Program-made: the position numbers and the translations under genes
The notes under the pieces: model-generated
Told to the model about the DNA's origin: nothing
Databases searched by the model: none
What the model saw: the letters and a program-made list of their open reading frames with translations, nothing else
Shown here: positions 21,352-64,000 of the stretch, one piece after another
Layout: the number at the start of each line of letters is the position of its first letter
Position numbering within the stretch: the first letter of the stretch is position 1
Source of the DNA: Mitsuokella multacida DSM 20544
GTDB lineage: Bacteria; Bacillota; Negativicutes; Selenomonadales; Selenomonadaceae
Direction of reading: 5' to 3'
Assembly (NCBI RefSeq): GCF_000155955.1
Contig: NZ_GG697143.2
Coordinates: 62,554-126,553, forward strand
Length of the DNA stretch: 64,000 bases

Positions 21352-21450
21352 CAAAAAAAGCCGACACAAATCCAGGCTGTGCCCAGACGGTCGGCTCTTC
21401 TTCCCTGTGCTCCCTGTGGTCATCCACTTCCGTCAGTTGCACAGCATCTA
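21352..21450 (-). ncRNA. ZTP (pfl) riboswitch with overlapping terminator
   Basis: Read on the minus strand, the leader contains the pfl hallmarks: AACTGACGGAAGTGG, then ACCACAGGGAGCAC, a short linker, and GCCGACCGTCTGGGCA, which provides the pseudoknot strand and conserved CUGGGC loop. The strand AGCCGAC (21391-21397) is shared with a terminator whose other arm GTCGGCT is followed by seven T residues (21352-21365). Ligand binding would tie up the shared strand and allow transcription of the AICAR transformylase gene. Confidence 0.9.
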
Positions 21451-42879: not shown

Positions 42880-45800
42880 ATGAATCGGATTTATCAAGTC
42901 ATCTGGAGCAGCGTCAAGAGTTGCTACGTCGTCGTATCAGAGAACGCAAGCCGTCACGGTAAGAAGAAAGCTGCGCATCTGGCACCGTCGACAACTAAGC
43001 GCACCATGCTGGCCATGAGCCTAGGGGCAGCCGTGCTGATGGGCTCGGGCTCTGCAACAGAGGCGGCTGCTACAGGAGAACATGCTACCATCAGCGGTGG
43101 TGACAATGGGACTGCCTCGGGAAAGTATTCCAGCATCAGCGGTGGCAAGGATAATGTAGCTGCTGGGGAAAATTCCAGCATCAGCGGTGGCTCGACCAAC
43201 AAAGCTTCGGGGATAAATTCCAGTGTCAGCGGTGGTGGCGACAATGAAGCGATTGGTGAAGAGGCCAGTGTCAGCGGCGGTTCTCAAGGAAAGGCTACTG
43301 GCAAACGTTCGAGCGTTACCGGTGGTGGACAGAACCAAGCGGCCGGTGACTTTTCTACCGTTAATGGCGGTACCGGCAATAAAGCGTTTGGTTACGGATC
43401 ATCCATCATTGGTGGTAGTGGCAATGTAGTCGGCAAAATGGCTGTAGACGAGAACGGAAACCCAAAGTTTAAAGACAGCAATGGCAATGATGTTGTTGGA
43501 ACGATAACAATGGACAAAGAGAGGAATCCTATTCTCGTAGACAGTAAAGGCAATGTTATCAAGGATGCTCATCAGTATCCAGATCCTTCATCTCCTTTTG
43601 CAGCTTCAGTTGCCGTAGCAATTGGTGGTTATTCATCCTCTGTACAGGGAAGCTATTCCGTCGGTATTGCTGGCGGCAGCACGAGCGCATCGGCCTCCAG
43701 CGGCTTAGCAGCTGGCAGACAGGCCACGGTCACGATGGCGAATGGTGTTGCTATCGGCTACGAGTCTACGGCTTCTGTCATCAATTCGTCTCGTGCAGCG
43801 GATAAAGAAGGGCGCATTGTATCCTTTGGTCATCAGGCGGGAGATGTTTATTATACGGTAGACTATCAAAACCACACCGTCACCGAGAATCAATATGACT
43901 CTGCCGCCTACAACCGTCTCGTCAATGTCGCTGATGGTATCGACGACCACGACGTCGTCGTTATGGAGCAGCTCAAGAACGCCAAAGCGGAGGCTGTGGC
44001 AGAGGCCAAGACGAATATCAAGGTCAAGGGCGATGAGTTCAATGTCCATGCTGCTGAAAGCACGGATGCCAAGGGCGTACAGACTACGACCATCAGCCTG
44101 ATGCCCAAGGTCACGTTGAAGAACAGCACGGACACCACCGGTGCCAAGCAGGTGGTGCTGGACGGCACGGCGGGGACGATTTCTGCCGGCCTCAGCACGG
44201 ACACGAAGAATTTTGTTTCCCTAGACGGGACAAAAGGCCTTGCCAAGGTGGGAGGAATCCAGATCGGCAATCAGTCCTTTACCTATGATTATATGAAGCC
44301 GGTCAGCCTCAATGACGATGGGGCCACCCTCAAGCTGGAATCCACCCGGGCGAGTGCATCGGGGAACTTTGTGACGGGCCTTTCCAACCGCACCTGGACG
44401 CCGGGCAATTATATGACCGGCCGTGCGGCAACAGAAGACCAGCTGGAACAGGCGGGCCGCCACTTCCTGAGCATCAAGACGGCCAATAAAGATGATGATG
44501 GCAATCCGATAACGCCGGTTGCGGAAAACAGCTTGGCCAACTACTACAACGATGGTGCCACGGGCTCGGCTTCCATGGCCTTTGGCGTGGGCACCACGGC
44601 AAAAGGAGACCATTCTCTGTCCATGGGCGTCAGGAGCTCTGCTTCCGGTTTGAATTCTCTGGCCATCGGCTACGATAACACGGCTTCCGGCACCCAGTCC
44701 GTGGCAGTGGGCAACGGCACCAATGCCAGCGGCAATTACTCCGTTGCCATGGGCCTGGGCTCTCAGGCAGGTACTCAAAATACAGATCCGGAATCCACGG
44801 ACAATGGCGCTGCCGTAGCCGTTGGCTTTGAGTCCTCTGCAGAACAGACTGGTTCGGCTGCTTATGGCTATATGGCTTCGGCGAATAACTTTGAATCCTC
44901 GGCGTTTGGTACCAGTGCTACTGCAAATGCAGATGGCAGTGTAGCTTTGGGCGCTCATTCAGTAGCGAATCGAGACAAAGGCATCTCTGGGTATCTGGCA
45001 CCGACGTCTATGACTCCGGATAATGCAGCTATTTGGATTTCTACGGATGGTGCAGTATCTCTTGGCGGTAAAACGAAGAATGCTGCCGGCCAGGATGTCA
45101 CTATTTCCCGCCAGATCACCAACCTGGCCGCTGGTTCTGAGGATTCCGATGCCGTCAATGTGGCTCAGCTCAAGGCCTTGGCAAGCCAGGGCATGAACTT
45201 CCAGGGCAATGACACGAATACCTCTGTCCACCTCGACCAGGGCGGCACCCTCCAGATCCAGGGCAGCGGCCGCAAGGAGGACACGGAATACTCCACCCAG
45301 AATGTCAAGGTCCTGACGGATACGGCGAATAAGCGTCTTTCCATCGCTCTGGACAAGAACCCCACCTTTGATTCTGTCACGGCCGGTACGGAAAACAGCA
45401 CTTCCGGCGGCGGACAGACCGGCTCCCTCAAAATCGTAGGGGCCAATAGCAGCAGTACCAACAAAGCCACCACCATCACCGCAGGCTATGCCGCATCTCC
45501 GGAACTTTCCGGTGCCAAGGGCACGGGCCGCATCAGCTATACCGATGGAGACGGCACGGCGCATACCGTAGCAACCCTCGGCGATGGCCTCAAGCTGGCT
45601 GGCGATACGGGAACGGGCAGCGTGGCTCTGGACAATACGCTCACCGTTTCCGGCGGTGCTACGAATCTGGCCAATGGCAATAATATCGGCGTCACCGCCA
45701 ATGGCTCCACCCTTTCGCTGAAGCTGGCCAAGGACATCACCGGTCTTGACACCGTGACTGCCGGCGGCGTCAAGATGGGCACCCAATCCGATGGCAATGA

Positions 45801-48800
45801 TACCACCAAGAGCGGGAAGTACGTCACCGGCCTCGACAATACCACCTGGACCGTAGGGCAGACCCAGCCTGTCACCGGCCGTGCTGCTACAGAAGACCAG
45901 CTCAAGAGCGTGTCCGATGTGGTCAATACGAACCGGACCAATATTGCCAACAATACCGAAGCCATCGCCAAAGGCCTCAATTTCTCGGCCAGCAACAAGG
46001 TAGATGGTACCTATAAGACGGTCAAAAAGAATCTGGGCGATACGGTGGCAGTTCGCGCCAGCGATGTCAAGGATGGCCATACCTACAATACGGACAACCT
46101 GACCACAGAAATCGATGACAACGGCATCATCACCGTGAAGATGGATACCCAGCTCACGGCGGACAAGGTGACTGTGGGAACAGGCGATAATGCCATCACC
46201 ATCGATGGTTTCGACGGCAGCATGAAGACCGGTTCTTCCACCTTGAACGGTACAGGCCTGACCATTAATAATGGTCCCAGTGTCACCACCAGCGGCATCA
46301 GCGGCGGCAGTAAGCAGATCACTGAGGTCAAGAGTGGTGCATCCGGCATGGATGATTCCAATAACCCGATATATGGAACGGACACCAATGCCGCCAATAT
46401 CGGCGATGTCAAGAATATCGCCGCCAAGACCGTGACCGTCAGCGGAGACAATAAGAATACGAAGGTGGTAGGAACGCCGAATACCACAGATGGAACGGTG
46501 GACTACAAGGTTTCCTTGAACGATACTGTGACCCTGGGCAGCGATGCCGGAACACAGGTTTCCTTGAATGGCAAGACCGGTGTCATTAAGGCTGGCAATC
46601 AGGCGACTATCGACGGCAGTGCAGGAACGGCTTCCATTGGCAATCTCTCCTTGGGGACTGTTGCAGCGAATACCCTGACCTTAAAGGATAAAGATGGCAG
46701 AGACACCCCCCAGAAGGCAGATGCAGGAACGTATGCAACGGGCTTGACCAATACGACTTGGGACGTCGCCAACCCGTCTTATGTCAGCGGTAGAGCTGCG
46801 ACGGAAGACGAACTCCTGACTGTATCCAATACCGTCAACTCCGGCTGGAAGGCCCAGATTAACGGCACCGATGTCAAGACTGTCACACCTACCGATAACA
46901 CCTTGAACTTTGTGGCAGGGGATAATATTTCTCTTTCCAGCGGCAATGATATCAAGGATATCAAGATTGCCACTACACCGGATGTCAACTTTACAACGGT
47001 CCGCGTCGGTGGTACCAATACTAGCGGCACTTATACAGGCGGCATTTTCCTGGGAAATCAGGCTGGCGGTGGTGCTAATGGCAGTGCTGATTCCCCGATT
47101 ATGAGTATTACAGGACTTAAAAATACAGCCTGGGTGAAGGGCAACTTTATGTCCGGCCGTGCGGCTACAGAAGATCAGCTGAACGTAGTAGCCCAGCAGA
47201 TTATAGGCGAAGTCAACGCTGCTGATATTTATGTAGAGAGCGGATCTGTCTCTTATGATACAAAGGGCGATGGAACCGGTACATTGCAGCGTTCTAATAA
47301 GACCACAGGCAATCTGACTGGCCTCCATGATTACTATGTAACCGGTGGCAGTGTCAGCACCGATGGTAAAACCCTGAATCTGACGAAAAATGGCGGTGAT
47401 GCCATTCCGGGTATTGATATGACCAATGTGCTGAATCAGGACAGCCATCTGGTGGCCGCCGACAGTGGTGAATACACGGTAGGCAGCGATGGCAAGGTAA
47501 CGCTGAAGGTGAAAAATAACGTAGCGGGAAGCACTCCTACGGATGTGGTGATTTCTGGTATTGCCAGCAATGCGGCTCTGCAGAAGGGCTTGAATTTTGA
47601 AGCCAATGGAGCAGAGAAGGAGGGCGGAAGTGCTGCCTACAATGCTCCGCTGGGGGATAAAATCAGTGTATTGGGCGGTGCGGCAAAGGATAAGCACACC
47701 TACAATACAGATAACATCACCACTACTATGAATAATGGCACCATCACGGTGAAGTTGGACAATGACCTGACGGCTCACAGCCTGACGGCAGGGTCCAGTA
47801 CTGTTGATGGTAGAGTGAGGGTAACTGGCGCTAAAGGTGCCTATGTTGAGATGGATGGCAGTGACGGTTCCATTCATTTGGGCAACAACGGTGGCCGTTA
47901 TTCCGCACTGTATCAGAACTATGGCGGCACGGGCTTCTTGACGGCTGAAACATCTCCGCGTTTGGAATATGCGGTAGACAATGCCCCGAACACGCGTCAC
48001 ACCATTGCCACCCTGGACGATGGCATGAAGTTTGCCGGTGATGATGCCAAGGCAGATTCGTCTAAGACTGTCAGCACAACCCTCAACAGCACTTTGAAGA
48101 TCACTGGAGGTGCTGCTGCCGGCAATTTGACGGACGGCAATATCGGTGTGGTGAAGAACGATGCTGGCGATGGCCTGATAATCAAGCTGAATAAGGACCT
48201 CACCAATATGGGCACCATCAGCTTTGCACCCACTGCAGGGACTACGGGCAGTGGCATCAAGATTGGCTCCCAGACTATTGCCAACAACGGCACCAGCCCT
48301 AATGCTGCTGCCGGTGACTACGTTACCGGCCTGACCAACACCAAATGGTCGAAAGACGGCATCGTCAGCGGCCGGGCAGCTACAGAAGACCAGCTCCAGC
48401 AGGTGGCCAATGCCATTGTCAATGGCAAGGAAACGGGTGGCGGCTTTGGTATCAGCGACAATGCAGGCAATGTGGTGAAGCAGGATCTGGGCGGCGCCAT
48501 CCAGCTGAAGGCGGCAGACAGCAATCTGACCACTACGGCAGATACCACTGGCAAAGCCATTACCTTTGGCTTGAGCAAGGAACTGAAAGACATGACCAGT
48601 GCTACTTTCAAGGATGCGACGACTGGTGCTATGACCGTAATTGACGGCAAGGGCATTGCCATTACGCCCCAGAACGGCAGCACAAATGGCCAAGTAAAGC
48701 TGACCACCGATGGACTGTCCAATGGCGGTAAGCAGATTACCAATGTACAGAGCGGACTCTATGATACGGCACAGAATAAGCCGGTGGATATCTCTACCAT

Positions 48801-51800
48801 TACGGCAGACAGCTCCATGCTGCAAAATGGGGCCACTATCGGCGATTTGCAGACCGTCAGAAATGGTTTGAAAACAGAACTGACAAACAAGGGCCTGGAC
48901 TTCAAGGGCAATGACGCTACCACTACTGTCCATAGAAATCTGGGCGACACCCTGACCATCCAGGGAACCGGCGCGGATGGCCGTGAATACGACGGCGGCG
49001 CCAATGTGCAGGTCAAGGCAGATAAGAATGCCAATACGCTGACGGTCCAGCTGGATCGCGACCTCAATGCCCATACCCTGACGTTGGGCAAAGCTTCTAA
49101 TGGAACCGAAAAAGGGGAAGCAGGGACGCTGATCCTCAACGGGAAAAACAAGGATAATGGGATGAGCCCGGTATCCATCGGTGTCACCTATCGGGGAAAT
49201 CAGAACAATGAAGCCATGAAGACGGCCATGTCTCGGATTACCTATAAAGGTGGCAATGGAAATGACCACACCGTGGCCACCCTGGAAGACGGCCTGCAGT
49301 TGTCCGGTGATAATGGCGAAGCCCTCAATACCACCCTGGACAAGAAGGTGACCATCAAGGGCGGCGCGAAGGACAAGCTGGTGGACAACACCACGGATCC
49401 CACGAAGAACAATAACATCGGTGTCGTTGCCAGCCAGGATGATGACGGCAATACCACCCTTTCCTTGCAGCTGGCCAAGGATCTCACCGGTCTCAATACG
49501 GTGACGGCCGGCTCAGTGGTCATGGGCAATCAGAATGTCATCAGTGTAGGAAAAGCTTCGGGACAGGGCAACTTCATCACTGGTCTTGATAACAAGACAT
49601 GGGATGGGACCGACTATGTCTCCGGCCGGGCGGCGACAGAAGATCAGCTGAAGACAGTCAGCGATTCCATCAAGACTTCTGTAAACAATGCCCAGTTTGG
49701 GATTACCGCCGGCGGCCTGGCTGATGGCGGCGATGTGACGGTCAAGAAGAATCTCGGTGAATCCATCCGCATCTATGGCGATGCTCCGGTAACCAACGAG
49801 AAAAACGATGGCTCCGGGGATTTCTGGGATCGCAGCAAGGCCAACATCCTCACCAAGGTGAAGAAAGACCATGATGGAAATGATTACGTTTCCGTAGAAC
49901 TCCAGGATCATCTGGAAGTCGGTGTCCATGGGGGTGCCGATGACAAAGGTACAGATGGCAGCATGCAGTTCAAGGGCAAGTCCGCCAAAGAGGTGAACAT
50001 CACCGGCGATACGGGTGTTATCCTGAGCGACGGCGATGGCCAAGCCAGGACGCAGACAGCGGCTCTTCGCCAGAACAATGGTACAGGCTATCTGGACCTC
50101 GCCGGTTCTGAGGGCGCGTTTACCAGCCTGTTTACGAAGAAAGGCACACAGAATCTGTCTCAGGAGGATGCCAAGAAGTCTGATACACGCTTGACCTATA
50201 CGACGGATAAGAGCAGCAAGACTGAGCATCAGGTGGCTACGCTGGACGATGGTCTCGTCATCGCTGGCGACAATGGACAGGTGACGCGCCTTCTGAACAG
50301 CACGCTGAAGTTGTCCGGTGGTGAGACGGATGAAGCCAAACTTTCCAGTGGCAAGAATATTGGTGTTGTCGCCAATAAGGATAACGATGGCCTTGATATC
50401 AAGCTGGCCAAAGACCTGACGGATATCGACAGCATCAATATGACGGGCGGCCTCAAGCTCAACAGCACCAATGGCTCGTCGACGATCACTGGCCTGACGA
50501 ATACGAGCGTCGATCTGCCTGACTTTGGCAAAGCTGGCCGGGCTGCTACAGAAGAACAGCTGGAGCAGGTGAAGGGCAGCATCACCGACACTGCAAAGGG
50601 CGGCGGTTTTGGCCTGGCCGATGACAAGGGGAATGCCGTAAAGGCAGACCTTGGAAGCAACATCGGCATTCACGGGGACAGTAATATCACGACGGCTGTT
50701 TCTGAAGATGGCAAATCGCTCAACATCGGCCTGAAGAAGGATGTTGACCTCGGTGATGCTGGCTCCATCAAGGCCGGCGGCGTCACAATCGACAAAAACG
50801 GCATTGACGCTGGTGGCAAGAACATCACCAACGTCAAGAGTGGTATCGTCAAGGGCGATGACAGCGACAACGGCAATGCTGCCAACATCGGCGATGTGAA
50901 ACATATCGTCGATGGCAAGATTGGCGATGTCAACGGTAAGATCGACAACATCACGAAGGATGTCTCGAACATCAAGACGGATGTATCGACGATCAAACAG
51001 ACGAAGCGCACATATCAGGGCGATGACGGCAAGGTCGTTAATGTCGACTTTGGCGGTGCACTGAGCCTGACGGGCGGCGCTACGGAAGTCGCGGAGGATA
51101 AGAACATCGGCGTCGTCAAGAATGGCGGAAATGGCCTGTCCCTGCGCCTGGCGAAGAATCTTGGCGGCCTTGAGAGTGTCACGACGGGTAAGACTACGAT
51201 GGATGACAGCGGCCTGACCATTGCGGGCAGCGATGGCAAGGCTAGCACCACGGTCACGAATAGCGGCATCAAGATTGCCTCTAGCGGCGATGATACGCAT
51301 GCGGTGGAAATCAGCAATAGCAATGTCTCAATGGGTGGTCAGCAGATTCATGATGTGGCTCCTGGCGCGGCGGACGGCGATGCAGTCAATGTCTCGCAGC
51401 TCAAGAAGAGTGTTGGGGCGCTCGGTGGGGCCATCAATCAGGTGGACCGCCGCGTGGATCGCGTCGGCGCTGGTGCGGCAGCTCTGGCGGCCCTGCATCC
51501 GCAGGATTTCGACCCGGATGACAAGTGGGACTTCGCTGTGGGCTACGGCAATTACCGCGGCGCGAATGCGGCGGCTGTCGGTGCGTTCTACAAGCCGAAT
51601 GAGGATACGACATTCTCGGTCGGCGGCACGGTCGGTGGCGGCGAGAACATGGTCAATGCGGGCATCAGCTTCAAGTTTGGCCAGGGCAACCACGTCTCGA
51701 ACAGCCGTGTGGCCATGGCCAAGGAAATCAAGGACCTGCGCAAAGAGGTCGAGAGCCTGCGCAGTGCGCTTGTCGATGTAGCAGCTGGCAAGCAGCTTGA

Positions 51801-52122
51801 CCCGGCGAAGACGAAGCTCTTCCCGGATATGCCCAAAAACCACTGGGCTTACAAGGAAATCTCGGAGCTCGCAGGCAATGGACTGCTCGACGGGTATCCG
51901 GATGGTGAGTTCAAGGGCGACCGCATGATGACGCGTTACGAATTCGCGACGATTGTCTACCGCCAAATGATGGCGGGCAGGGAGCTCAGTGACCGCCTTG
52001 TACAGGAATTCGAGCCAGAGCTCGAGCGCATCCGCATCGATGTCGTCGCGCGCCACAAGGACGGCACGCCGTCAATCGAGCGCGTCCGCGTCAACAAGCC
52101 TGCTGATGCGAACCGCAAGTAA
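42880..52122 (+). CDS. Giant trimeric autotransporter adhesin with C-terminal SLH domain
   Basis: A 3,080-residue surface adhesin. Residues 1-25 (MNRIYQVIWSSVKSCYVVVSE) are an extended signal peptide region, followed by a signal helix at about 42-64. Residues 65-190 carry 14-residue YadA-head-type repeats (SSISGGxxNxAxG). A further head follows at about 550-710 (SLAIGYDNTASGTQSVAVGNG). The stalk repeats a module ending GRAATEDQL seven times, at about residues 513, 999, 1303, 1425, 1830, 2248 and 2552. The YadA anchor begins at about 2848 (GGAINQVDRRVDRVGAGAAALAAL) and ends near 2938. Unusually, a coiled coil (2945-2971) and an SLH domain (LFPDMPKNHWAYKEISELAGNGLL..., 2977-3030) follow, which must be periplasmic and could grip peptidoglycan. 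Confidence 0.95.
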   Translation: MNRIYQVIWSSVKSCYVVVSENASRHGKKKAAHLAPSTTKRTMLAMSLGAAVLMGSGSATEAAATGEHATISGGDNGTASGKYSSISGGKDNVAAGENSSISGGSTNKASGINSSVSGGGDNEAIGEEASVSGGSQGKATGKRSSVTGGGQNQAAGDFSTVNGGTGNKAFGYGSSIIGGSGNVVGKMAVDENGNPKFKDSNGNDVVGTITMDKERNPILVDSKGNVIKDAHQYPDPSSPFAASVAVAIGGYSSSVQGSYSVGIAGGSTSASASSGLAAGRQATVTMANGVAIGYESTASVINSSRAADKEGRIVSFGHQAGDVYYTVDYQNHTVTENQYDSAAYNRLVNVADGIDDHDVVVMEQLKNAKAEAVAEAKTNIKVKGDEFNVHAAESTDAKGVQTTTISLMPKVTLKNSTDTTGAKQVVLDGTAGTISAGLSTDTKNFVSLDGTKGLAKVGGIQIGNQSFTYDYMKPVSLNDDGATLKLESTRASASGNFVTGLSNRTWTPGNYMTGRAATEDQLEQAGRHFLSIKTANKDDDGNPITPVAENSLANYYNDGATGSASMAFGVGTTAKGDHSLSMGVRSSASGLNSLAIGYDNTASGTQSVAVGNGTNASGNYSVAMGLGSQAGTQNTDPESTDNGAAVAVGFESSAEQTGSAAYGYMASANNFESSAFGTSATANADGSVALGAHSVANRDKGISGYLAPTSMTPDNAAIWISTDGAVSLGGKTKNAAGQDVTISRQITNLAAGSEDSDAVNVAQLKALASQGMNFQGNDTNTSVHLDQGGTLQIQGSGRKEDTEYSTQNVKVLTDTANKRLSIALDKNPTFDSVTAGTENSTSGGGQTGSLKIVGANSSSTNKATTITAGYAASPELSGAKGTGRISYTDGDGTAHTVATLGDGLKLAGDTGTGSVALDNTLTVSGGATNLANGNNIGVTANGSTLSLKLAKDITGLDTVTAGGVKMGTQSDGNDTTKSGKYVTGLDNTTWTVGQTQPVTGRAATEDQLKSVSDVVNTNRTNIANNTEAIAKGLNFSASNKVDGTYKTVKKNLGDTVAVRASDVKDGHTYNTDNLTTEIDDNGIITVKMDTQLTADKVTVGTGDNAITIDGFDGSMKTGSSTLNGTGLTINNGPSVTTSGISGGSKQITEVKSGASGMDDSNNPIYGTDTNAANIGDVKNIAAKTVTVSGDNKNTKVVGTPNTTDGTVDYKVSLNDTVTLGSDAGTQVSLNGKTGVIKAGNQATIDGSAGTASIGNLSLGTVAANTLTLKDKDGRDTPQKADAGTYATGLTNTTWDVANPSYVSGRAATEDELLTVSNTVNSGWKAQINGTDVKTVTPTDNTLNFVAGDNISLSSGNDIKDIKIATTPDVNFTTVRVGGTNTSGTYTGGIFLGNQAGGGANGSADSPIMSITGLKNTAWVKGNFMSGRAATEDQLNVVAQQIIGEVNAADIYVESGSVSYDTKGDGTGTLQRSNKTTGNLTGLHDYYVTGGSVSTDGKTLNLTKNGGDAIPGIDMTNVLNQDSHLVAADSGEYTVGSDGKVTLKVKNNVAGSTPTDVVISGIASNAALQKGLNFEANGAEKEGGSAAYNAPLGDKISVLGGAAKDKHTYNTDNITTTMNNGTITVKLDNDLTAHSLTAGSSTVDGRVRVTGAKGAYVEMDGSDGSIHLGNNGGRYSALYQNYGGTGFLTAETSPRLEYAVDNAPNTRHTIATLDDGMKFAGDDAKADSSKTVSTTLNSTLKITGGAAAGNLTDGNIGVVKNDAGDGLIIKLNKDLTNMGTISFAPTAGTTGSGIKIGSQTIANNGTSPNAAAGDYVTGLTNTKWSKDGIVSGRAATEDQLQQVANAIVNGKETGGGFGISDNAGNVVKQDLGGAIQLKAADSNLTTTADTTGKAITFGLSKELKDMTSATFKDATTGAMTVIDGKGIAITPQNGSTNGQVKLTTDGLSNGGKQITNVQSGLYDTAQNKPVDISTITADSSMLQNGATIGDLQTVRNGLKTELTNKGLDFKGNDATTTVHRNLGDTLTIQGTGADGREYDGGANVQVKADKNANTLTVQLDRDLNAHTLTLGKASNGTEKGEAGTLILNGKNKDNGMSPVSIGVTYRGNQNNEAMKTAMSRITYKGGNGNDHTVATLEDGLQLSGDNGEALNTTLDKKVTIKGGAKDKLVDNTTDPTKNNNIGVVASQDDDGNTTLSLQLAKDLTGLNTVTAGSVVMGNQNVISVGKASGQGNFITGLDNKTWDGTDYVSGRAATEDQLKTVSDSIKTSVNNAQFGITAGGLADGGDVTVKKNLGESIRIYGDAPVTNEKNDGSGDFWDRSKANILTKVKKDHDGNDYVSVELQDHLEVGVHGGADDKGTDGSMQFKGKSAKEVNITGDTGVILSDGDGQARTQTAALRQNNGTGYLDLAGSEGAFTSLFTKKGTQNLSQEDAKKSDTRLTYTTDKSSKTEHQVATLDDGLVIAGDNGQVTRLLNSTLKLSGGETDEAKLSSGKNIGVVANKDNDGLDIKLAKDLTDIDSINMTGGLKLNSTNGSSTITGLTNTSVDLPDFGKAGRAATEEQLEQVKGSITDTAKGGGFGLADDKGNAVKADLGSNIGIHGDSNITTAVSEDGKSLNIGLKKDVDLGDAGSIKAGGVTIDKNGIDAGGKNITNVKSGIVKGDDSDNGNAANIGDVKHIVDGKIGDVNGKIDNITKDVSNIKTDVSTIKQTKRTYQGDDGKVVNVDFGGALSLTGGATEVAEDKNIGVVKNGGNGLSLRLAKNLGGLESVTTGKTTMDDSGLTIAGSDGKASTTVTNSGIKIASSGDDTHAVEISNSNVSMGGQQIHDVAPGAADGDAVNVSQLKKSVGALGGAINQVDRRVDRVGAGAAALAALHPQDFDPDDKWDFAVGYGNYRGANAAAVGAFYKPNEDTTFSVGGTVGGGENMVNAGISFKFGQGNHVSNSRVAMAKEIKDLRKEVESLRSALVDVAAGKQLDPAKTKLFPDMPKNHWAYKEISELAGNGLLDGYPDGEFKGDRMMTRYEFATIVYRQMMAGRELSDRLVQEFEPELERIRIDVVARHKDGTPSIERVRVNKPADANRK

Positions 52123-56224: not shown

Positions 56225-56301
56225 GGGGTTATAGCTCAGTTGGTTAGAGTGTCTCGTTGACATCGAGGAGGTCACAGATTCGAATTCTGTTAACCCCACC
56301 A
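56225..56301 (+). tRNA. tRNA-Val (anticodon GAC)
   Basis: 77 nt with the acceptor pair GGGGTTA/TAACCCC, D-arm TAGCTCAGTTGGTTAGAG, anticodon loop TTGACAT giving GAC, T-arm with GATTCGAATTC and an encoded CCA end. It reads valine codons GUC and GUU. Confidence 0.96.
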
Positions 56302-56313
56302 TTTAGAAAGATG

Positions 56314-56343
56314 AGGTTTCGTCGAACGGCGAAACCTTTTTTG
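56314..56343 (+). terminator. Terminator between the two tRNA genes
   Basis: An 8-bp stem AGGTTTCG/CGAAACCT with an 8-nt loop followed by TTTTTTG. It lies only a few bases before the next tRNA. Confidence 0.75.
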
Positions 56344-56346
56344 TTT

Positions 56347-56423
56347 GCTCGCTTAGCTCAGTTGGCTAGAGCATCTCCGTCACATGGAGGGGGTCGGGGG
56401 TTCGAATCCCTCAGCGAGCACCA
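56347..56423 (+). tRNA. tRNA-Val (anticodon CAC)
   Basis: 77 nt with the acceptor pair GCTCGCT/AGCGAGC, D-arm TAGCTCAGTTGGCTAGAG, anticodon loop GTCACAT giving CAC, T-arm GGTTCGAATCC and encoded CCA. It reads GUG. It has no promoter of its own between the preceding terminator and its 5' end, so it probably arises by read-through. Confidence 0.96.
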
Positions 56424-56435
56424 TATGGATAGTTC

Positions 56436-56469
56436 AAGCCGTGCGCATTGCGCACGGCTTTTATTTTTA
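56436..56469 (+). terminator. Terminator after tRNA-Val(CAC)
   Basis: A perfect 11-bp stem AAGCCGTGCGC/GCGCACGGCTT with an ATT loop, followed by TTATTTTTAT. Confidence 0.88.
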
Positions 56470-56490
56470 TCAAAATGGATAGAAAACATA

Positions 56491-56519
56491 TTGACATTAT
56501 ATGCTTTTGCTGATATGAT
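56491..56519 (+). promoter_or_regulatory. Promoter of the seven-gene operon
   Basis: Consensus -35 TTGACA (56491-56496), 17-bp spacer, -10 TATGAT (56514-56519). Transcription should begin near 56527, leaving a leader of about 180 nt before the first gene. Confidence 0.78.
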
Positions 56520-56551
56520 AATGCCCATAAGATGAGTTGACCAAACGAATT

Positions 56552-56661
56552 GGAGACTTTGAGCAGCATATGGATCTCGTCCGGAAGGATGGCAATGGAG
56601 CCCAAGAGGGCACAGTCACTTTTTCGAGCATTTCCATAGGCTCGCTTGGAGTCTCCTTTTT
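56552..56661 (+). ncRNA. Orphan structured leader RNA (riboswitch- or attenuator-like)
   Basis: Long-range pairing nests as GGAGACT/AGTCTCC (56552-56558, 56650-56656), GAGC/GCTC (56561-56564, 56640-56643), TATGGA/TCCATA (56569-56574, 56633-56638) and CTCG/CGAG (56576-56579, 56625-56628). Inside are two hairpins: TCC-GGAA-GGA (56580-56589, a GNRA loop) and GCCC-AAGA-GGGC (56600-56611). The outer closing arm runs directly into TTTTTG. The multibranched fold with a closing stem that doubles as a terminator is how many riboswitches are built. I do not recognise a known class. Confidence 0.55.
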
Positions 56662-56709
56662 GCATACTTAAAAGTACGGATATGCATCAATGAAAGGATG
56701 TTGGACAAT

Positions 56710-57798
56710 ATGGCAATCAAGGATCAGGATATCGCAAGAGAACGAGAGAAGGTAGAATTCAAGCGCGCGATGGACCCGTGCCCGATCGACTTTTCGGAGC
56801 TGCAGACGACGAACCCGCGCGCCAATGGCGAGCAGAAGGAATACGAGGGCCGCGATGCCTCGAACTTCAATCGCCGCAAGAAGTACAACGATGAAGAGGA
56901 ACCGCAGTTCACGGCGAGCTTCCTGACAGGCGAGCTTCCTGTCGAGCCAAACCGCTATCGTCTCGTCTGGTCGCGCCACTGCCCGTGGGCCAACCGCATC
57001 TCGATCGCGATTGACCTCCTGGGACTCGACAGGGTGATCTCGAAGGGCGTCGTCGATCCGCTGCGCCCAGCTGGCGTCGTCGGCGACTGGTTCTTCACAT
57101 TGGACCCGGATGAGAAGGACCCCGTCCTCGGCGTCCATTCACTCGGCGAATGCTATCGCAAGGCGGACCCGGCATTTGACCAGCGTGCGACGGTACCGGC
57201 TCTCGTCGATGTCAAGACGGGCAAGGTCGTTAACAATGATTACCATGTCCTTGATGCGGAACTCGCTGTGGCTTTCAAGGACTACATCGCCGAAGATGCG
57301 CCGGATATCTATCCGGAGGAGCTGCGCGAGGACATCGATGCCCTCAATATCATCCTCTACGCAGATGTCAATCTGGCCGTCAATCTCGCTGCACTCGTCG
57401 GTACGCAGGAAGAGTACGAGTTCTACTACAATAAGATCTTCGACCGCCTCGACTGGCTTGAGGAGCGCCTTTCGACGCGCCGCTACCTCATGGGCGATAC
57501 GATTACGCTGCCGGATATCCGCCTGTTCGTGACACTCTCGCGCTTCGATCTCGTCTTCTATCAGAAGTACTTCGTCAACAAGAAGCGCCTCGTCGACTAT
57601 CCGAATCTCTGGAATTACGCGAAGGACCTCTACTCGAATCCGGCTTTCGGCAACAACACGGACTTCGATTCCATGCGCAAGCGCTTCTACTATGTCGATC
57701 ACACACCGTTTGCCGATCTCAAGCGCATCGTGCCGAAGGGACCCGATGACAGCCGCTGGAATGAGCCGAATGACCGCGCGGAGAAATTCGCCAGATAA
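56710..57798 (+). CDS. Glutathionyl-hydroquinone reductase-like GST (ECM4/YqjG family)
   Basis: A 362-residue member of the Xi-class GST family, which reduces glutathionyl-hydroquinones through an active-site Cys. The thioredoxin-like N-domain shows VEPNRYRLVWSRHCPWANRISIAIDLLGL with the catalytic Cys in HCPWANR (about residue 95). The all-helical C-domain includes DWLEERLSTRRYLMGDTITLPDIRLFVTLSRFD and NLWNYAKDLYSNP. The typical GVVDP and WFFTLDPDE segments are also present. AAAGGA is 11 nt before ATG 56710; a TTG at 56701 is less well placed. First gene of a seven-gene operon. Confidence 0.87.
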   Translation: MAIKDQDIAREREKVEFKRAMDPCPIDFSELQTTNPRANGEQKEYEGRDASNFNRRKKYNDEEEPQFTASFLTGELPVEPNRYRLVWSRHCPWANRISIAIDLLGLDRVISKGVVDPLRPAGVVGDWFFTLDPDEKDPVLGVHSLGECYRKADPAFDQRATVPALVDVKTGKVVNNDYHVLDAELAVAFKDYIAEDAPDIYPEELREDIDALNIILYADVNLAVNLAALVGTQEEYEFYYNKIFDRLDWLEERLSTRRYLMGDTITLPDIRLFVTLSRFDLVFYQKYFVNKKRLVDYPNLWNYAKDLYSNPAFGNNTDFDSMRKRFYYVDHTPFADLKRIVPKGPDDSRWNEPNDRAEKFAR

Positions 57799-57841
57799 TC
57801 TGCTGAGATGAGCATGACAGGTAGCAGAGGAGGGACCCTGT

Positions 57842-59143
57842 ATGGACCAGAATACGACGGCTGTCGTTCGCCTTATTGAAGCGACAGAACTTTCAGGGCG
57901 CGATGACCTCATCGCCCAGGCCAAGCGGGCCTTTCTCGACTATCTGGCAGCTCTGCTGGCAGCTCGGCGCGAGCCGGCTGTAGAGAATCTGCGCCAGATG
58001 ACGGATGAGGGTCGCGCATCTGACAGGGCAAGGCTTTACGGCTTTGCTTCGCATTACCTCGATTTTGACGATGCGCAGGCCAATATCGCCGGCCACTTCA
58101 GCACGGTGCTCTATTCAGTGCTGTTGGCGGTGGCAAGGCCGGACGATGCAGTCTGCGACTTCCTGGCAGCATACATCGCTGGGGCGGAATTGGAGGGCTT
58201 GCTCGGCGCGCGCCTCAATCCAGAACACCGGCGGCAGGGCTGGCATTCCACTGGCACGGTCGGCACTTTGGGGGCTGCCGCGGCCATCGTGCGGCTGCGT
58301 CGTTTGACAGGGGAGCGGGCGGCAGAGGTCCTCTCGCTGGCAGGCACTCAGTCAGCTGGCATGGCCTTTGAGGCCGGCTCGGACGGCAAGCCGCTTCATG
58401 CTGGTTTTGCGGCAGAGCATGCGGTGACGGCGTTTCGTCTCGTTGAGGCGGGCCTGAATGCACGTACAAACCTGTTCGACGATGTGACGGGGTGGCTGGC
58501 CGTCTTCACGGATGGCCGACGGTACCTCGATGTGGCACGCATGCAGCAAGAATGGTTGCAGCCCGGCCAGATTTTGGAGCCGGGCCTCTGGATGAAGCGT
58601 CACATGTACTGTTCCGCTGCAATCTGTGCGGCAGATGGTGCAGAAGAGCTCTACCGACAAGGGCTGCGCATGGCGGATGTTCGCTCCATCACGGTGCATT
58701 TCCCACCTGGCGCCGACCGAGCACTGCGCTATACGCGGCCGCAGACGGGCCGCGAGGGACAGTTCTCCGTCGAATTTATCATCTGGCAGATCTTGCAGCA
58801 TGGCAGGATCGAGGATGCATACTTTAGGCAGAGTACCGTGCCGCAGGCGTTCCTGGAGGCGCTTCCCAAGTTTCACCGCGCTTATGACGTCCCGACGCTG
58901 CCGCTGTCGGAGCGCGCCGTGCCACTGACAGCTGAGACCGTGGACGGACGGCACTGGCAGGCGGATGTGCGCGAGCCGCAGGGCTCGCCGGCAAGACCGC
59001 TGACGATTGCGCAGCAGAAGGAGAAACTGGAGATGGCGGTAGGCAGTCTGTCGGCCGGCCATATCATCGATACGATTGGCAACTGGCCCGATGGGGAAAT
59101 CGGGCCTTGCCTTGACTGGATAAAAGGAGAGATGTTCCCATGA
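57842..59143 (+). CDS. MmgE/PrpD family protein
   Basis: A 433-residue protein of the family that includes 2-methylcitrate dehydratase, cis-aconitate decarboxylase and iminodisuccinate epimerase. Visible landmarks are AKRAFLDYLAALLAARREPAV near the N-terminus, HYLDFDDAQANIAGHFSTVLYS, GCRLNPEHRR-like GARLNPEHRRQGWHSTGTVGTLGAAAA, and LAGTQSAGMAFEAGSDGKPLHAGFAA. The substrate cannot be deduced. The gene lies 43 bp after the GST and overlaps the next gene by ATGA, so it is firmly tied to the transporter. It may act on the imported compound or its product. Confidence 0.87.
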   Translation: MDQNTTAVVRLIEATELSGRDDLIAQAKRAFLDYLAALLAARREPAVENLRQMTDEGRASDRARLYGFASHYLDFDDAQANIAGHFSTVLYSVLLAVARPDDAVCDFLAAYIAGAELEGLLGARLNPEHRRQGWHSTGTVGTLGAAAAIVRLRRLTGERAAEVLSLAGTQSAGMAFEAGSDGKPLHAGFAAEHAVTAFRLVEAGLNARTNLFDDVTGWLAVFTDGRRYLDVARMQQEWLQPGQILEPGLWMKRHMYCSAAICAADGAEELYRQGLRMADVRSITVHFPPGADRALRYTRPQTGREGQFSVEFIIWQILQHGRIEDAYFRQSTVPQAFLEALPKFHRAYDVPTLPLSERAVPLTAETVDGRHWQADVREPQGSPARPLTIAQQKEKLEMAVGSLSAGHIIDTIGNWPDGEIGPCLDWIKGEMFP

Positions 59144-59979
59144 AGATACCGAATCGATTTGCACGCGTGCTGACAGCCGTCCTGATGGTCGTGGGCCTCG
59201 GCGTACTGGCCGGCTGCGGCAGTGATACGGATGATAGCAGTGCCAGCGTCAACAAGGATGCCAAGACGGTCGTCGTGGCGACGCGCGGCACGGTCAAACC
59301 GTATTCCTACACGGATGATGACGGCAAGCTGACGGGCTACGATGTCGAGATCCTCAAGGAGATCGAGAAGCGCGACCCGAGCTTGCACTTCACTTTCAAG
59401 CCAATGGCTGTCGATGCAGCTTTCGTCGCGATGGATTCCTCGCAGGTTGACATGATTGCCAACCAGATGCGCCATTCGCCGGCGCGCGACGAGAAGTACA
59501 TCTTCCCGAAAGAACTCAACAATTACACGGTGCGCAAGCTCGTCGTGCCGAAAGACGATGATGCGACGAAGTCCCTCGACGACCTCAAGGGCAAGAAGGT
59601 AGCTGTCACGACGAACTCGGAGTTTGCCGATCTCGTCAAGAAATTCAATGAGACGGCCGATACCCCAATCGAGATTGTCTACACGGATAAGGGCCCATCG
59701 GAGACGATGAACCTCGTTGCGACGGGGCGTGCACAGGCTGCCGGCGAGTATGAGTACATTGTCTCGGTCGCACAGAAAGACAAGAATCTGCCCATCAAGA
59801 CGGTGGGGCCGACACTGACGAAGGTACCGACTTACTTCCTGCTCCGCAAGGACGACGAGATGCAGAAGGTCGCCGATAAGATCGACGCTGCGCTCAAGTC
59901 CATGAGGGAAGATGGCACGCTCAAGGCGCTCTCTGAGAAGTACCTCGGTGCGGATTACACGGAAGCGCCGACTGAATAA
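59140..59979 (+). CDS. ABC transporter substrate-binding lipoprotein, polar amino acid/cystine type
   Basis: A 279-residue lipoprotein: signal MKIPNRFARVLTAVLMVVGLGVLAGCG with lipobox LAGC, so it is attached by Cys25. The mature domain is a family 3 solute-binding protein (TVKPYSYTDDDGKLTGYDVEILKEI, VDMIANQMRHSPARDEKYIF, KKVAVTTNSEFADLV). The ANQ...RDEKYIF region resembles cystine-binding TcyJ/TcyK-type proteins, hinting at a cystine-like or S-substituted cysteine ligand; this is tentative. It overlaps the MmgE/PrpD gene by 4 nt. Confidence 0.9.
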   Translation: MKIPNRFARVLTAVLMVVGLGVLAGCGSDTDDSSASVNKDAKTVVVATRGTVKPYSYTDDDGKLTGYDVEILKEIEKRDPSLHFTFKPMAVDAAFVAMDSSQVDMIANQMRHSPARDEKYIFPKELNNYTVRKLVVPKDDDATKSLDDLKGKKVAVTTNSEFADLVKKFNETADTPIEIVYTDKGPSETMNLVATGRAQAAGEYEYIVSVAQKDKNLPIKTVGPTLTKVPTYFLLRKDDEMQKVADKIDAALKSMREDGTLKALSEKYLGADYTEAPTE

Positions 59980-60002
59980 CCGCGCAGAAAGGAGAAGGCT
60001 CG

Positions 60003-60710
60003 ATGGGTACTTATTTTGATGTCGGATATATGATCAAGTCATTTCCGACGCTCCTGGGCATGGTCCACATCACGCTGCTGGTGACGATTTTTTCGGCGAT
60101 TGTCGGCATCCTGCTCGGCGCTGCCATCGCGGTCCTGCGCATCCAGTGCGTGCCAGTCATCGCGCCGCTCCTGCGCATCTTCATCTCGTTCATGCGCGGG
60201 ACGCCTTTCCTCGTGCAGCTTTTCCTTGCTTACTTCGGTGTGCCGGAGATCCTCGCACATGTCGGTATCAGCATGAAAGGCGTGCCGCCATTGGCTTTTG
60301 TTCTCGCAGTGTTTACGCTGCACATGGCTGCCTATGGTGCGGAGATCCTGCGCTCGAGCATTTTGGCTGTGCCTGTCGGAGAGAAAGAGGCGGCGATGAG
60401 CCTCGGCATGACGTCCTTCCAGATGTACCGTCGTGTCGTCCTGCCACAGGCCTTCCAGATGGCGATGCCGGCTCTCATCAACACGGTCATCGGCGTCGTC
60501 AAAGGCACGAGCCTGATCTTTAATGTCGGCGTCGTCGACATCATGCGCAAGGCGGAGCTCATGGCGGGCAACTCACAGCGCAGCCTGGAACTCTACGTGG
60601 ACGTGGCCGTCATCTACGGTATCTTGATCTTCCTGATTGCGCGCATCGGACGGTTCCTCGAGAGGCGCCAGAGCCACAATCGGGATCTTGCAGAACTCAG
60701 TGAGGCGTAA
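60003..60710 (+). CDS. Amino acid ABC transporter permease
   Basis: A 235-residue HisM/GlnP-type permease with about five TM helices. FPTLLGMVHITLLVTIFSAIVGILLGAAIAVLR is the N-terminal region and RGTPFLVQLFLAYFG the early motif. The EAA loop, which docks with the ATPase, is EKEAAMSLGMTSFQMYRRVVLPQA at about residues 128-151. It pairs with the next permease, giving a heterodimeric channel. ATG 60003 follows AAAGGAGAAGGCTCG. Confidence 0.93.
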   Translation: MGTYFDVGYMIKSFPTLLGMVHITLLVTIFSAIVGILLGAAIAVLRIQCVPVIAPLLRIFISFMRGTPFLVQLFLAYFGVPEILAHVGISMKGVPPLAFVLAVFTLHMAAYGAEILRSSILAVPVGEKEAAMSLGMTSFQMYRRVVLPQAFQMAMPALINTVIGVVKGTSLIFNVGVVDIMRKAELMAGNSQRSLELYVDVAVIYGILIFLIARIGRFLERRQSHNRDLAELSEA

Positions 60711-60714
60711 GATT

Positions 60715-61434
60715 ATGAATGGACATAGTTTGATTGACTGGCAATACATCGTGCAGGGTGCTGCGTTCATCGCGCCTTATGTCAAGGTCACTTTGCTCCT
60801 GACGCTCTCGAGCGTATTCTTCGGCGCAGTGCTCGGACTCGTCAGTTGCCTGGCACAGCGGAGCCAAGTGCCCGCGCTGGGCAAGCTCTTCCGGCTTTAC
60901 GTCTACGTTTGCCGGAGCATTCCCAACATGGTGCTTTTATATCTCGTTTACTACGGCATGCCGCTTGCCTTCCTGGCATTACGCGGCAAGACCGGCATCC
61001 ATGTGCCCATAGAACATGTGCCAGCCATGGCTGTAGCCATCATCGGCCTGACGCTCCACACGGGGGCCTACCTCAGCGAGATTTTCCGCGCGGCACTCGA
61101 CTCGGTACCTCAGGGACAGTTTGAAGCGGCTGAGGCGATGGGGATGACATCGTTCCAGATGTACCGCCGCGTCATCTTCCCGCAGGCCATCGTCTTTGCG
61201 CTGCCGCTCTTTGCCAACCAGTTCCTTTCGACGATGAAGAGCACGAGCATCGTTTTCGTTATCACGGTCATCGAGGTGTTTGGTGCGGCCAAACTCTTCT
61301 GTGAGGACAACTCGCAGTACTTCGAAGCTTACATCGTGGCGGCTCTCCTCTATTGGGGTATGGGCATCTTATTTGAATACCTATTTACGAAACTCGAGGA
61401 CCGACTCTCCTCGTACAAGAGGTGCAAGATATGA
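60715..61434 (+). CDS. Amino acid ABC transporter permease
   Basis: A 239-residue second permease of the same HisM/GlnP family. FIAPYVKVTLLLTLSSVFFGAVLG near the N-terminus, RSIPNMVLLYLVYYG and the EAA loop FEAAEAMGMTSFQMYRRVIFPQA (about residues 130-155). The start is ATG 60715, 4 nt after the previous stop; the frame is open into the preceding gene but only this start has GAGGCG at a sensible distance. Overlaps the ATPase gene by ATGA. Confidence 0.93.
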   Translation: MNGHSLIDWQYIVQGAAFIAPYVKVTLLLTLSSVFFGAVLGLVSCLAQRSQVPALGKLFRLYVYVCRSIPNMVLLYLVYYGMPLAFLALRGKTGIHVPIEHVPAMAVAIIGLTLHTGAYLSEIFRAALDSVPQGQFEAAEAMGMTSFQMYRRVIFPQAIVFALPLFANQFLSTMKSTSIVFVITVIEVFGAAKLFCEDNSQYFEAYIVAALLYWGMGILFEYLFTKLEDRLSSYKRCKI

Positions 61435-62198
61435 TAAAACTTGAACACGTGAAGAAGTCCTTCGGTGATCAGGCTATCCTGCGGGATATCAGCCTGAATG
61501 TGCCGACGGGCAGTGTGACAGTCATCCTCGGCCCGTCGGGCAGTGGTAAGACGACGCTCCTGCGCACGATCAACTTTCTTGGCAAGGCCGATGGAGGCAC
61601 GCTCTTCATCAATGACCAGCGCTACGACCTCCGCAAGGCATCCCGCAAAGAGATTCTCGCTGTACGCCGTCAGACGGCTATGGTATTCCAATCGTACAAC
61701 CTTTTCTCGAATATGACGGCATTGCAGAACGTTATGGAAGCGCTCGTGACGGTGCAGGGCAGGAACAAGGCGGACGCGAGGGAGCGGGCGGCTGAGTTGC
61801 TCACTCAGGTCGGCATGAAGGAGCATGCCGACAAGTATCCGGCACAGCTTTCAGGTGGTCAGCAGCAGCGCGTCGGCATCGCCCGCGCTCTGGCGGTCAA
61901 TCCGCAGGTCATCCTGTTCGATGAGCCGACGAGTGCTCTCGATCCGGAACTCGTCGGCGAGGTACTGGCTGTCATCCGCGACGTGGCTAAGAACAGCAAG
62001 GTCACGATGATCATCGTGACGCATGAGATTGCCTTTGCGCGCGAGGTCGCCGACCAGATCGTTTTCATGGAGGGCGGCTGCGTCGTGGAGACGGGCGCAC
62101 CGCAGGACGTTCTCGTCCATCCGCGCGAGGAGCGCACGAGAGTATTCCTCAACCGCTACCTCGGCGGCACAACATTGCGCGACGGCGCGGGCATTTGA
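61431..62198 (+). CDS. Amino acid ABC transporter ATP-binding protein
   Basis: A 255-residue ATPase: Walker A GPSGSGKTTLLR (about residue 34), Q-loop VFQSYNLFSNMTALQNVMEAL, signature LSGGQQQRVGIARALA (about 135), Walker B VILFDEPTSALDPELVGEVL, and switch His in IVTHEIAFAREVAD. Such ATPases drive the two permeases encoded just upstream. Translationally coupled through ATGA overlap. Confidence 0.95.
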   Translation: MIKLEHVKKSFGDQAILRDISLNVPTGSVTVILGPSGSGKTTLLRTINFLGKADGGTLFINDQRYDLRKASRKEILAVRRQTAMVFQSYNLFSNMTALQNVMEALVTVQGRNKADARERAAELLTQVGMKEHADKYPAQLSGGQQQRVGIARALAVNPQVILFDEPTSALDPELVGEVLAVIRDVAKNSKVTMIIVTHEIAFAREVADQIVFMEGGCVVETGAPQDVLVHPREERTRVFLNRYLGGTTLRDGAGI

Positions 62199-62228
62199 CA
62201 TCGACAGTTGATAGAGAGGAGGAATCAC

Positions 62229-62717
62229 ATGGCAACGTATCGTGAACTGGGGGAGGCCGACCTTGATGCGTACTACCGCATCCTGCATGAGGGCTATCAG
62301 ACGGACAAGAAGTATCCCCTTTCTTTCGCCGCCATGACGGCAACGCGGGAGCAGGAGCGCGCTTGGCTCATGAGCAACCCGACGTACGGGCTGTTCGAGG
62401 ATGGCGAGCTTGTCAGCGCGCTCTCTCTGCGCATGCCTTGGGGGCCAAATCCCGGTCCTGAAGGTGTACCGCACATCGGCCAGGTCGTCACAGCCCCTGA
62501 GCATATGCACCGAGGCTATGCTTCAACACTCATCGGCCTCATCTTGGAAGAGGTCCTGAAACAGCAGCTCAAGGTGCCCTTCGTGACGCTCGGGACAGCG
62601 ACGAGCCATCCGTGGCTGCGGAAGATGTATGAGAAGCTCGGCTTTCGTGCGTTCCGTGAAGTCCAGTTGCCGGGGAAGGCACACCGTACTGTCTATCTGC
62701 GCCGAGACCTCGATTGA
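62229..62717 (+). CDS. GNAT family N-acetyltransferase
   Basis: A 162-residue acetyl-CoA-dependent transferase. The acetyl-CoA-binding region is VPHIGQVVTAPEHMHRGYASTLIGLILEEVL, where the HRGYAS loop corresponds to the Q/RxxGxG/A motif A. KMYEKLGFRAFREVQLPG is the usual motif B. B. subtilis couples GNATs (SnaA-type) to cystine-like importers for S-substituted cysteines, so N-acetylation of the imported compound is a reasonable hypothesis. ATG 62229 follows GAGAGGAGGAATCAC. It is the last gene before the operon terminator. Confidence 0.85.
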   Translation: MATYRELGEADLDAYYRILHEGYQTDKKYPLSFAAMTATREQERAWLMSNPTYGLFEDGELVSALSLRMPWGPNPGPEGVPHIGQVVTAPEHMHRGYASTLIGLILEEVLKQQLKVPFVTLGTATSHPWLRKMYEKLGFRAFREVQLPGKAHRTVYLRRDLD

Positions 62718-62731
62718 CCGAGGTCTTTTTT
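62705..62731 (+). terminator. Terminator of the seven-gene operon
   Basis: The stem AGACCTCG/CGAGGTCT with a 6-nt loop and TTTTTT overlaps the end of the GNAT coding sequence. Confidence 0.85.
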
Positions 62732-62776
62732 GTGTGTCATCCAGTTCTACTTATATGTAGGGAAGGGCCGGACACA

Positions 62777-62806: not shown

Positions 62807-62833
62807 AGATAAGGGAATATCGGTAACTTCTCC

Positions 62834-62900
62834 AAACTCAAAATGAGATTTTCCAGAGGCCGCCATGATAGGCGGGTGGAAGGTCAATTTGAGTTTTTTC
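62834..62900 (+). promoter_or_regulatory. Attenuator-like leader of purB
   Basis: AAACTCAAA (62834-62842) pairs with TTTGAGTTT (62888-62896), which runs into TTTTTT, enclosing a long hairpin with TTCCA/TGGAA and CCGCC/GGCGG pairs. The same CTCA can instead pair with the local TGAG (62837-62847), which would break the terminator. No known purine aptamer is recognised. Confidence 0.5.
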
Positions 62901-62961
62901 GTCGTGTTTTCACTTCCGCGGTGCAGAGACGCCGCCAGGAAATTGAGGAGGAAATCACTAA

Positions 62962-64000
62962 ATGATCGAGCGTTATACTAAGCCGGAAATGGGCCATCTC
63001 TGGTCTATCGAGAACGAGTGGCAGCAGATCCTGAATGTCGAGATGGCTGCCTGCGATGCCATGGCCGAACTCGGAGAGATCCCGAAAGAGGCTGCCAAGA
63101 ACATTCGCGCGAAAGCAAAATTCGATGTCAATCGCATCCATGAGATCGAGTCGGTCACGCATCACGACATCATCGCGTTCCTGACGAACGTCGCCGAGAA
63201 TGTTGGTGATGACTCCAAATACATCCACAAGGGCCTGACGTCCTCGGATGTCAAGGACACGGCATACTGCATGATGATGCGCGATGCCTGCACGATCATC
63301 CTCGATGACCTCAAAAAGTTCCGTGAAGTCCTGCGCCGCCGCGCGAAGGAATTCAAGCATACGCCGTGCATCGGCCGCACGCATGGCATCCATGCTGAGC
63401 CGATGACGTTCGGCCTCAAGCTCTTGCTCTGGAGCGCCGAGATCGAGCGCGACATCGAGCGCATGGAGCATGCGAAGAAGATTGTCTCGGTCTGCAAGCT
63501 CTCGGGCGCTGTCGGCACGTACTCGAACATCGACCCGAAGATCGAGCAGATGGTCGGCAAGAAGCTCGGCCTGACGCCGGTGCGCCTCGCTACGCAGGTC
63601 ATCCAGCGTGATCGTCATGCTGAGTTCGTCACGTCAATCGCAATCTGTTCCTCGACGCTCGAGAAGATCGCGACGGAAGTCCGCAACCTGCAGCGCACGG
63701 ATATCCGCGAGGCAGAGGAGTACTTCTCCCCGGGCCAGAAGGGCTCTTCGGCGATGCCGCATAAGCGCAATCCGATCAACTGCGAGCGCATCTCCGGCAT
63801 GGCCCGCCTGAACCGCGGCAATGCCGTCGCTGCTCTTGAGGACATCACGCTCTGGCATGAGCGCGATATCTCCCATTCGTCCGTCGAGCGCGTCATCCTG
63901 CCGGATTCGTCGATCAACCTCGACTACTGCACGCAGAAGCTCACGGACATCATCGACAAGCTGCTCGTCTATCCGGACAAGATGCTCCACGATATGAACC
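62962..64000 (+). CDS. purB: Adenylosuccinate lyase (3' end outside window)
   Basis: Cleaves SAICAR to AICAR and adenylosuccinate to AMP, in both arms of purine synthesis. The 346 visible residues start MIERYTKPEMGHLWSIENEW and include VTHHDIIAFLTNV, GLTSSDVKDTA, the catalytic-His segment CIGRTHGIHAEPMTFGLK, and the signature loop GQKGSSAMPHKRNPINCE near residue 265. ATG 62962 follows GAGGAGGAAATC. It produces AICAR, the substrate of the ZTP-riboswitch-controlled enzyme at 20152. The window ends inside the gene. Confidence 0.97.
   Translation, partial: MIERYTKPEMGHLWSIENEWQQILNVEMAACDAMAELGEIPKEAAKNIRAKAKFDVNRIHEIESVTHHDIIAFLTNVAENVGDDSKYIHKGLTSSDVKDTAYCMMMRDACTIILDDLKKFREVLRRRAKEFKHTPCIGRTHGIHAEPMTFGLKLLLWSAEIERDIERMEHAKKIVSVCKLSGAVGTYSNIDPKIEQMVGKKLGLTPVRLATQVIQRDRHAEFVTSIAICSSTLEKIATEVRNLQRTDIREAEEYFSPGQKGSSAMPHKRNPINCERISGMARLNRGNAVAALEDITLWHERDISHSSVERVILPDSSINLDYCTQKLTDIIDKLLVYPDKMLHDMN

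Follow-up and report, generated by a model that had tools for sequence, protein, structure and literature searches.

The leader and its operon

The window analysed here is a stretch of 64,000 nucleotides from the genome of Mitsuokella multacida DSM 20544. On its forward strand, a leader at 56552-56661 stands ahead of an operon whose first gene (56710-57798) encodes a glutathione S-transferase (GST) of the ECM4/YqjG type. This name was given by an earlier reading made from the letters of the DNA (hereafter the sequence-only reading) and agrees with the GST domains detected in the protein, for which there was no match to an equivalog model. The gene probably starts at 56710, where its orthologues begin to align, rather than at 56698. 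It is followed on the same strand by a gene of the MmgE/PrpD family (57842-59143), by a cystine-like ABC transporter composed of a binding protein, two permeases, and an ATPase (59140-62198), and by a GNAT acetyltransferase gene (62208-62717). The best NCBIfam matches of the transporter are mostly cystine transporters, yet they lie below the curated cut-offs, and the operon probably serves the uptake of sulfur amino acids. Elsewhere in the window, positions 42880-52122 encode a protein of 3080 residues that, judged by eye, is trimeric autotransporter-like with an S-layer-homology-like end.

A sigma-70-type promoter, TTGACA-17-TATGAT, is located at 56491-56519 on the forward strand. It agrees with the consensus at 11 of 12 positions and has a TG preceding the -10 element (extended -10), and so confirms the consensus promoter that the sequence-only reading had placed at 56491. 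The transcript is predicted to start near 56526. Between the U run that ends the leader and the GST gene, no second promoter-like site was observed.

The segment from 56469 to 62751 (about 6.3 kb), which reaches from a tRNA-Val pair to purB and carries the leader at its left end, is missing from both congeners compared (G001 and G002), where the tRNA-Val pair and a terminator adjoin the purB promoter. No integrase gene was seen within the segment. A GST of the same kind was found in only one other of 151 sampled genomes of the family, with at most 51% identity, and gain is thus likelier than repeated loss. The closest orthologues (76-78% identity) belong to other families of the class, namely to Veillonella and Megasphaera, in which the gene order ecm4-mmgE-SBP-permease is kept and the leader is different each time. 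Judging from these comparisons, the leader and the operon look to have been inserted as a unit, by transfer.

Fold of the leader RNA

At minimum free energy (MFE, -50.6 kcal/mol), 56552-56661 folds without branching into a single rod interrupted by small internal loops. This long hairpin occupies 56552-56656 and has GGAGACU/AGUCUCC at its base and a GCCC-AAGA-GGGC hairpin (56600-56611) at its tip. The sequence-only reading had described a multibranched fold with a long closing stem, a GNRA hairpin, and a GCCC/GGGC hairpin; the closing stem and the GCCC/GGGC hairpin stand, and the branching and the GNRA hairpin fall away. The suboptimal structures listed for 56552-56661 are variants of the rod, and the multibranch fold was rejected on the ground that its GNRA hairpin (GUCC-GGAA-GGAU, 56579-56590) is absent from every structure within 3 kcal/mol of the MFE. 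When the GNRA and GCCC/GGGC hairpins are forced together, the energy is -45.2 kcal/mol, 5.4 kcal/mol worse than the MFE. The GNRA hairpin is transient: seen only in transcript prefixes ending at 56600 and 56615, it is lost as more RNA emerges.

The closing stem of the rod (GGAGACUUUGAGCAGC/GGCUCGCUUGGAGUCUCC) is followed directly by UUUUUG, as had been read from the DNA, and the U run (56657-56661) immediately 3' of the rod is an intrinsic terminator signature. The earlier proposal that the closing stem could act as a terminator is therefore consistent with this hairpin and U run, the termination itself being deduced from the anatomy. Folding of 56552-56656 yields -49.4 kcal/mol, compared with a mean of -30.3 kcal/mol for shuffled sequences (z = -5.5; reached by none of 500 shuffles), and the whole leader has z = -4.2 against shuffles. 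The interior of the rod alone is mildly structured against shuffles (z = -2.0 for 56568-56642 and -1.6 for 56575-56634), and hence most of the energy signal comes from the terminator-like closing stem. At 56638-56654, the sequence AGGCUC-GCUUG-GAGUCU can form another, shorter hairpin that also resembles a terminator (-7.3 kcal/mol).

Upstream of the rod and overlapping its base, a 5' hairpin (GAGUUGACCAAACGAAUUGGAGACUU, 56534-56559; -6.1 kcal/mol alone) holds most of the GGAGACU of the 5' arm, so that this hairpin and the rod base are mutually exclusive. It is present in the MFE structures of transcript prefixes up to 56650, until the 3' arm of the rod has been made, and could be an antiterminator. 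In constraint folds in which the 5' hairpin was enforced, the 3' arm was freed from the 5' arm and the leader had an energy of -48.1 rather than -57.2 kcal/mol. The state with a free 3' arm therefore lies 9.1 kcal/mol above the MFE, and the terminated form is favoured. The 5' hairpin and the rod together would have the anatomy of a simple attenuator, with the reservation that a competing hairpin of about -6 kcal/mol can arise by chance.

Searches for known families and relatives

In Rfam, nothing reaches its gathering score on the leader, and relaxing the threshold to E = 10 adds only ill-fitting matches of chance level, far below the cut-offs. The same holds for riboswitches of any described class, none of which matched the region at gathering score or at E up to 10; the sequence-only reading had found that the fold does not match ZTP, SAM, purine, THF, fluoride or guanidine aptamers. 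The T-box family (RF00230) likewise gave nothing across 56300-56900, even with E values of up to 10 allowed.

The leader is present as one copy in its own genome by both DNA search and covariance model, and a MITE, repeat, or other mobile element was rejected on the basis of this single copy. No DNA match was found in the other relatives within a sample of 60, and plasmid and phage DNA gave only chance matches of 20-35 bases. A covariance model built from the leader alone (R1, one sequence) was run against 152 genomes of the family and 379 Negativicutes genomes and, besides the leader itself, found nothing at E = 0.01 or better. Its weak matches (E = 0.026-0.25) were judged to be chance: three (L102, L104, and L105) are near-identical copies, in one genome, of a near-perfect hairpin, and another (L103) lies inside an aldo/keto reductase-like gene. 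With no credible relative of the leader, a conserved aptamer core with covariation across species was not found.

The window also contains the aptamer of a ZMP/ZTP riboswitch (RF01750, 57.3 bits) at 21374-21450 on the reverse strand, which served as a positive control. A one-sequence model of this sole ZTP riboswitch of the window (R2), built in the same way as R1, matched 59 of 101 family genomes, compared with 62 for the Rfam ZTP family, and the absence of relatives of the leader is therefore informative. Had the leader belonged to a riboswitch class spread normally through Negativicutes, relatives would probably have been seen; a class restricted to a donor outside the sample would have been missed.

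Leaders of orthologous operons

The leaders of 13 Negativicutes orthologues are unrelated to the one at 56552-56661. Together with the DNA and covariance searches, this gives the outcome, a lack of conservation before orthologous operons, that the sequence-only reading had itself named as refuting its riboswitch proposal. The leader of this operon varies from lineage to lineage. T-boxes, whose specifiers were read by eye from alignments, precede several of the orthologous operons. In Megasphaera cerevisiae (L002), the specifier is UGC (Cys), and in genome G322 (L090, 2710-3217, reverse strand) the ecm4-mmgE operon is preceded by a pair of T-boxes in tandem, each with the specifier UGC (Cys). 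Those of Paucilactobacillus (L006), Agrilactobacillus (L010), and Lentilactobacillus (L012) read AUG (Met), and in Leuconostoc (L007) a T-box with an ambiguous specifier lies further upstream. The Veillonella leaders are short and AT-rich and match no family, and no literature linking the Veillonella operon to T-box control was found.

The orthologous T-boxes show that this type of operon is often under the control of amino-acid-responsive leaders and support a sulfur amino-acid signal. The sulfur or amino-acid context that had been suggested from the downstream genes accordingly holds, given the cystine-like transporter and the Cys or Met T-boxes. The picture is of a sulfur-uptake operon, apparently transferred, that has a different leader in each lineage: T-boxes that read Cys in Megasphaera and Met in lactobacilli, a short leader in Veillonella, and the terminator-like rod in this genome. 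Among the orthologous loci, the mmgE gene of this operon was observed in two pieces in two genomes of the class, G374 and G379 (L118/L125 and L119/L126), one piece with an internal TAG; this suggests decay or a frameshift while ecm4 is intact.

A conserved leader upstream of purB

A second structured leader (62811-62961, forward strand), with purB starting at 62962, was noticed during comparison of the insertion site, 6 kb downstream of the leader at 56552-56661. Of 152 genomes of the family, 44 are matched by a covariance model built from three congeneric copies (R3), and these belong to 9 of the 30 genera. At 39 of the 40 loci taken, purB lies shortly downstream; another gene follows in the remaining one (L153). 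Across 30 aligned copies, 93.8% of pairs are standard and 29 of 45 pairs have changes on both sides, counts that are biased towards the model because the alignment was fitted to it. The covariation score of the 30 copies is 0.223, compared with 0.122 for shuffled and at most 0.073 for slid alignments. The terminator hairpin is CUCAAA...UUUGAGUUUUUU, replaced in L168 and L169 by CUCGGGA...CCCGGGUCUUUU, and is followed by a strongly conserved stretch, CGUGUUUUCACUUCCGCGGUGCAGUGACGCCGC. The 5' CUUCUCC of the leader is able to base-pair with the ribosome-binding site of purB (Shine-Dalgarno region GAGGAGGAA).

Rfam gave nothing on the purB leader up to E = 1, and the main text of surveys of new bacterial RNAs does not mention purB. 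From its conservation and covariation, the purB leader is a strong candidate for an orphan riboswitch or attenuator, and a far better orphan candidate than the leader at 56552-56661; control by a protein may also be involved. It merits ligand tests and a separate study.

Explanations of the leader

The sequence-only reading had put the leader forward as a candidate new riboswitch. This proposal does not survive the absence of a multibranch core and of relatives in Negativicutes in searches whose control worked, and a new riboswitch class is unlikely; the failure of the candidate saves bench work. Our preferred explanation, in which we place about even confidence, is that the leader is an ordinary intrinsic-terminator attenuator, specific to this locus and serving a transferred sulfur-amino-acid operon, with regulation proposed from its position and from the orthologues. 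A stable hairpin and a U run lie between the promoter and the first gene, and the promoter, rod, and U run stand in the right order, far beyond chance, which supports an attenuator. RNA polymerase would start near 56526 and make the long hairpin ending in the U run; most transcripts would then halt near 56661, and low expression of the operon would be the default state. For polymerase to read through, the base of the rod would have to stay open, for instance because the 5' hairpin at 56534-56559 holds the GGAGACU arm, and some factor might assist this hairpin in opening the base. Termination at the rod in vivo, the two-state switch, and its signal are all predictions. With the terminated form favoured by 9.1 kcal/mol, any switch could only be driven by kinetics or by a factor, and the U run, of only five U, counts against the attenuator.

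The leader is a single example, and an intrinsic terminator that is leaky and unregulated, holding the operon at a low basal level and sensing nothing, fits nearly as well. We regard this as possible though doubtful: a single unbranched rod with neither conserved core nor relatives, its strong energy sitting mainly in the closing stem, is what such a terminator would look like, but several orthologous operons have regulated leaders, and terminators that separate the promoter of an operon from its first gene are as a rule conditional. Control through a leader peptide is very unlikely. Translation of a 33-codon frame (56570-56671, MDLVRKDGNGAQEGTVTFSSISIGSLGVSFLHT) through the rod would open the terminator, and the frame stays open through the rod and has several serine codons close to its end, by the 3' arm; against this, its ribosome-binding site is weak, with poor Shine-Dalgarno spacing, its start codon lies within the stem, it contains no cysteine codon, frames of 33 codons are common by chance, and there are no relatives for comparison. 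That the leader is a decayed or diverged T-box, once matching those of the orthologues, is extremely improbable. The orthologous operons carry T-boxes and the genome itself has 13 T-box matches, but matches are detected in this genome down to 55 bits while the leader region gave none, and no T-box sequence is visible in it.

A riboswitch could also be hidden in the rod, as a new or very rare class with its aptamer inside the terminator stem. Terminator-embedded aptamers exist in the HMP-PP riboswitch (thiS motif; PMC6478431), the rod has internal loops, and an uptake operon lies downstream. We consider this very unlikely in view of the 379 Negativicutes genomes in which no relative was found despite the performance of the ZTP control (59 against 62 of 101), and of a rod interior with z of only about -2. 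The narrower version, in which the rod is an embedded sulfur-compound aptamer restricted to an unsampled donor lineage and hence has no relatives in the genomes searched, is very unlikely as well.

Comparison with known systems

The leader shares with the intrinsic-terminator attenuators of amino-acid operons a promoter, a structured leader, a terminator hairpin with a U run, and an uptake operon; it differs from them in being a single example whose sensor part is putative. T-box leaders (RF00230) occur on orthologous ecm4-mmgE-ABC operons with Cys or Met specifiers, whereas the present leader lacks a T-box sequence and is not matched by cmscan. As in the HMP-PP riboswitch, the elements of the leader lie within a terminator stem that is followed by U. 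The thiS RNAs, however, share a conserved loop and number in the hundreds (PMC6478431), and the rod has neither relatives nor an Rfam match. Within the same window, the purB leader likewise has, soon after its promoter, a long hairpin with a U run at its end, but it is conserved and covarying across genera, unlike the leader at 56552-56661, for which the searches gave no relatives.
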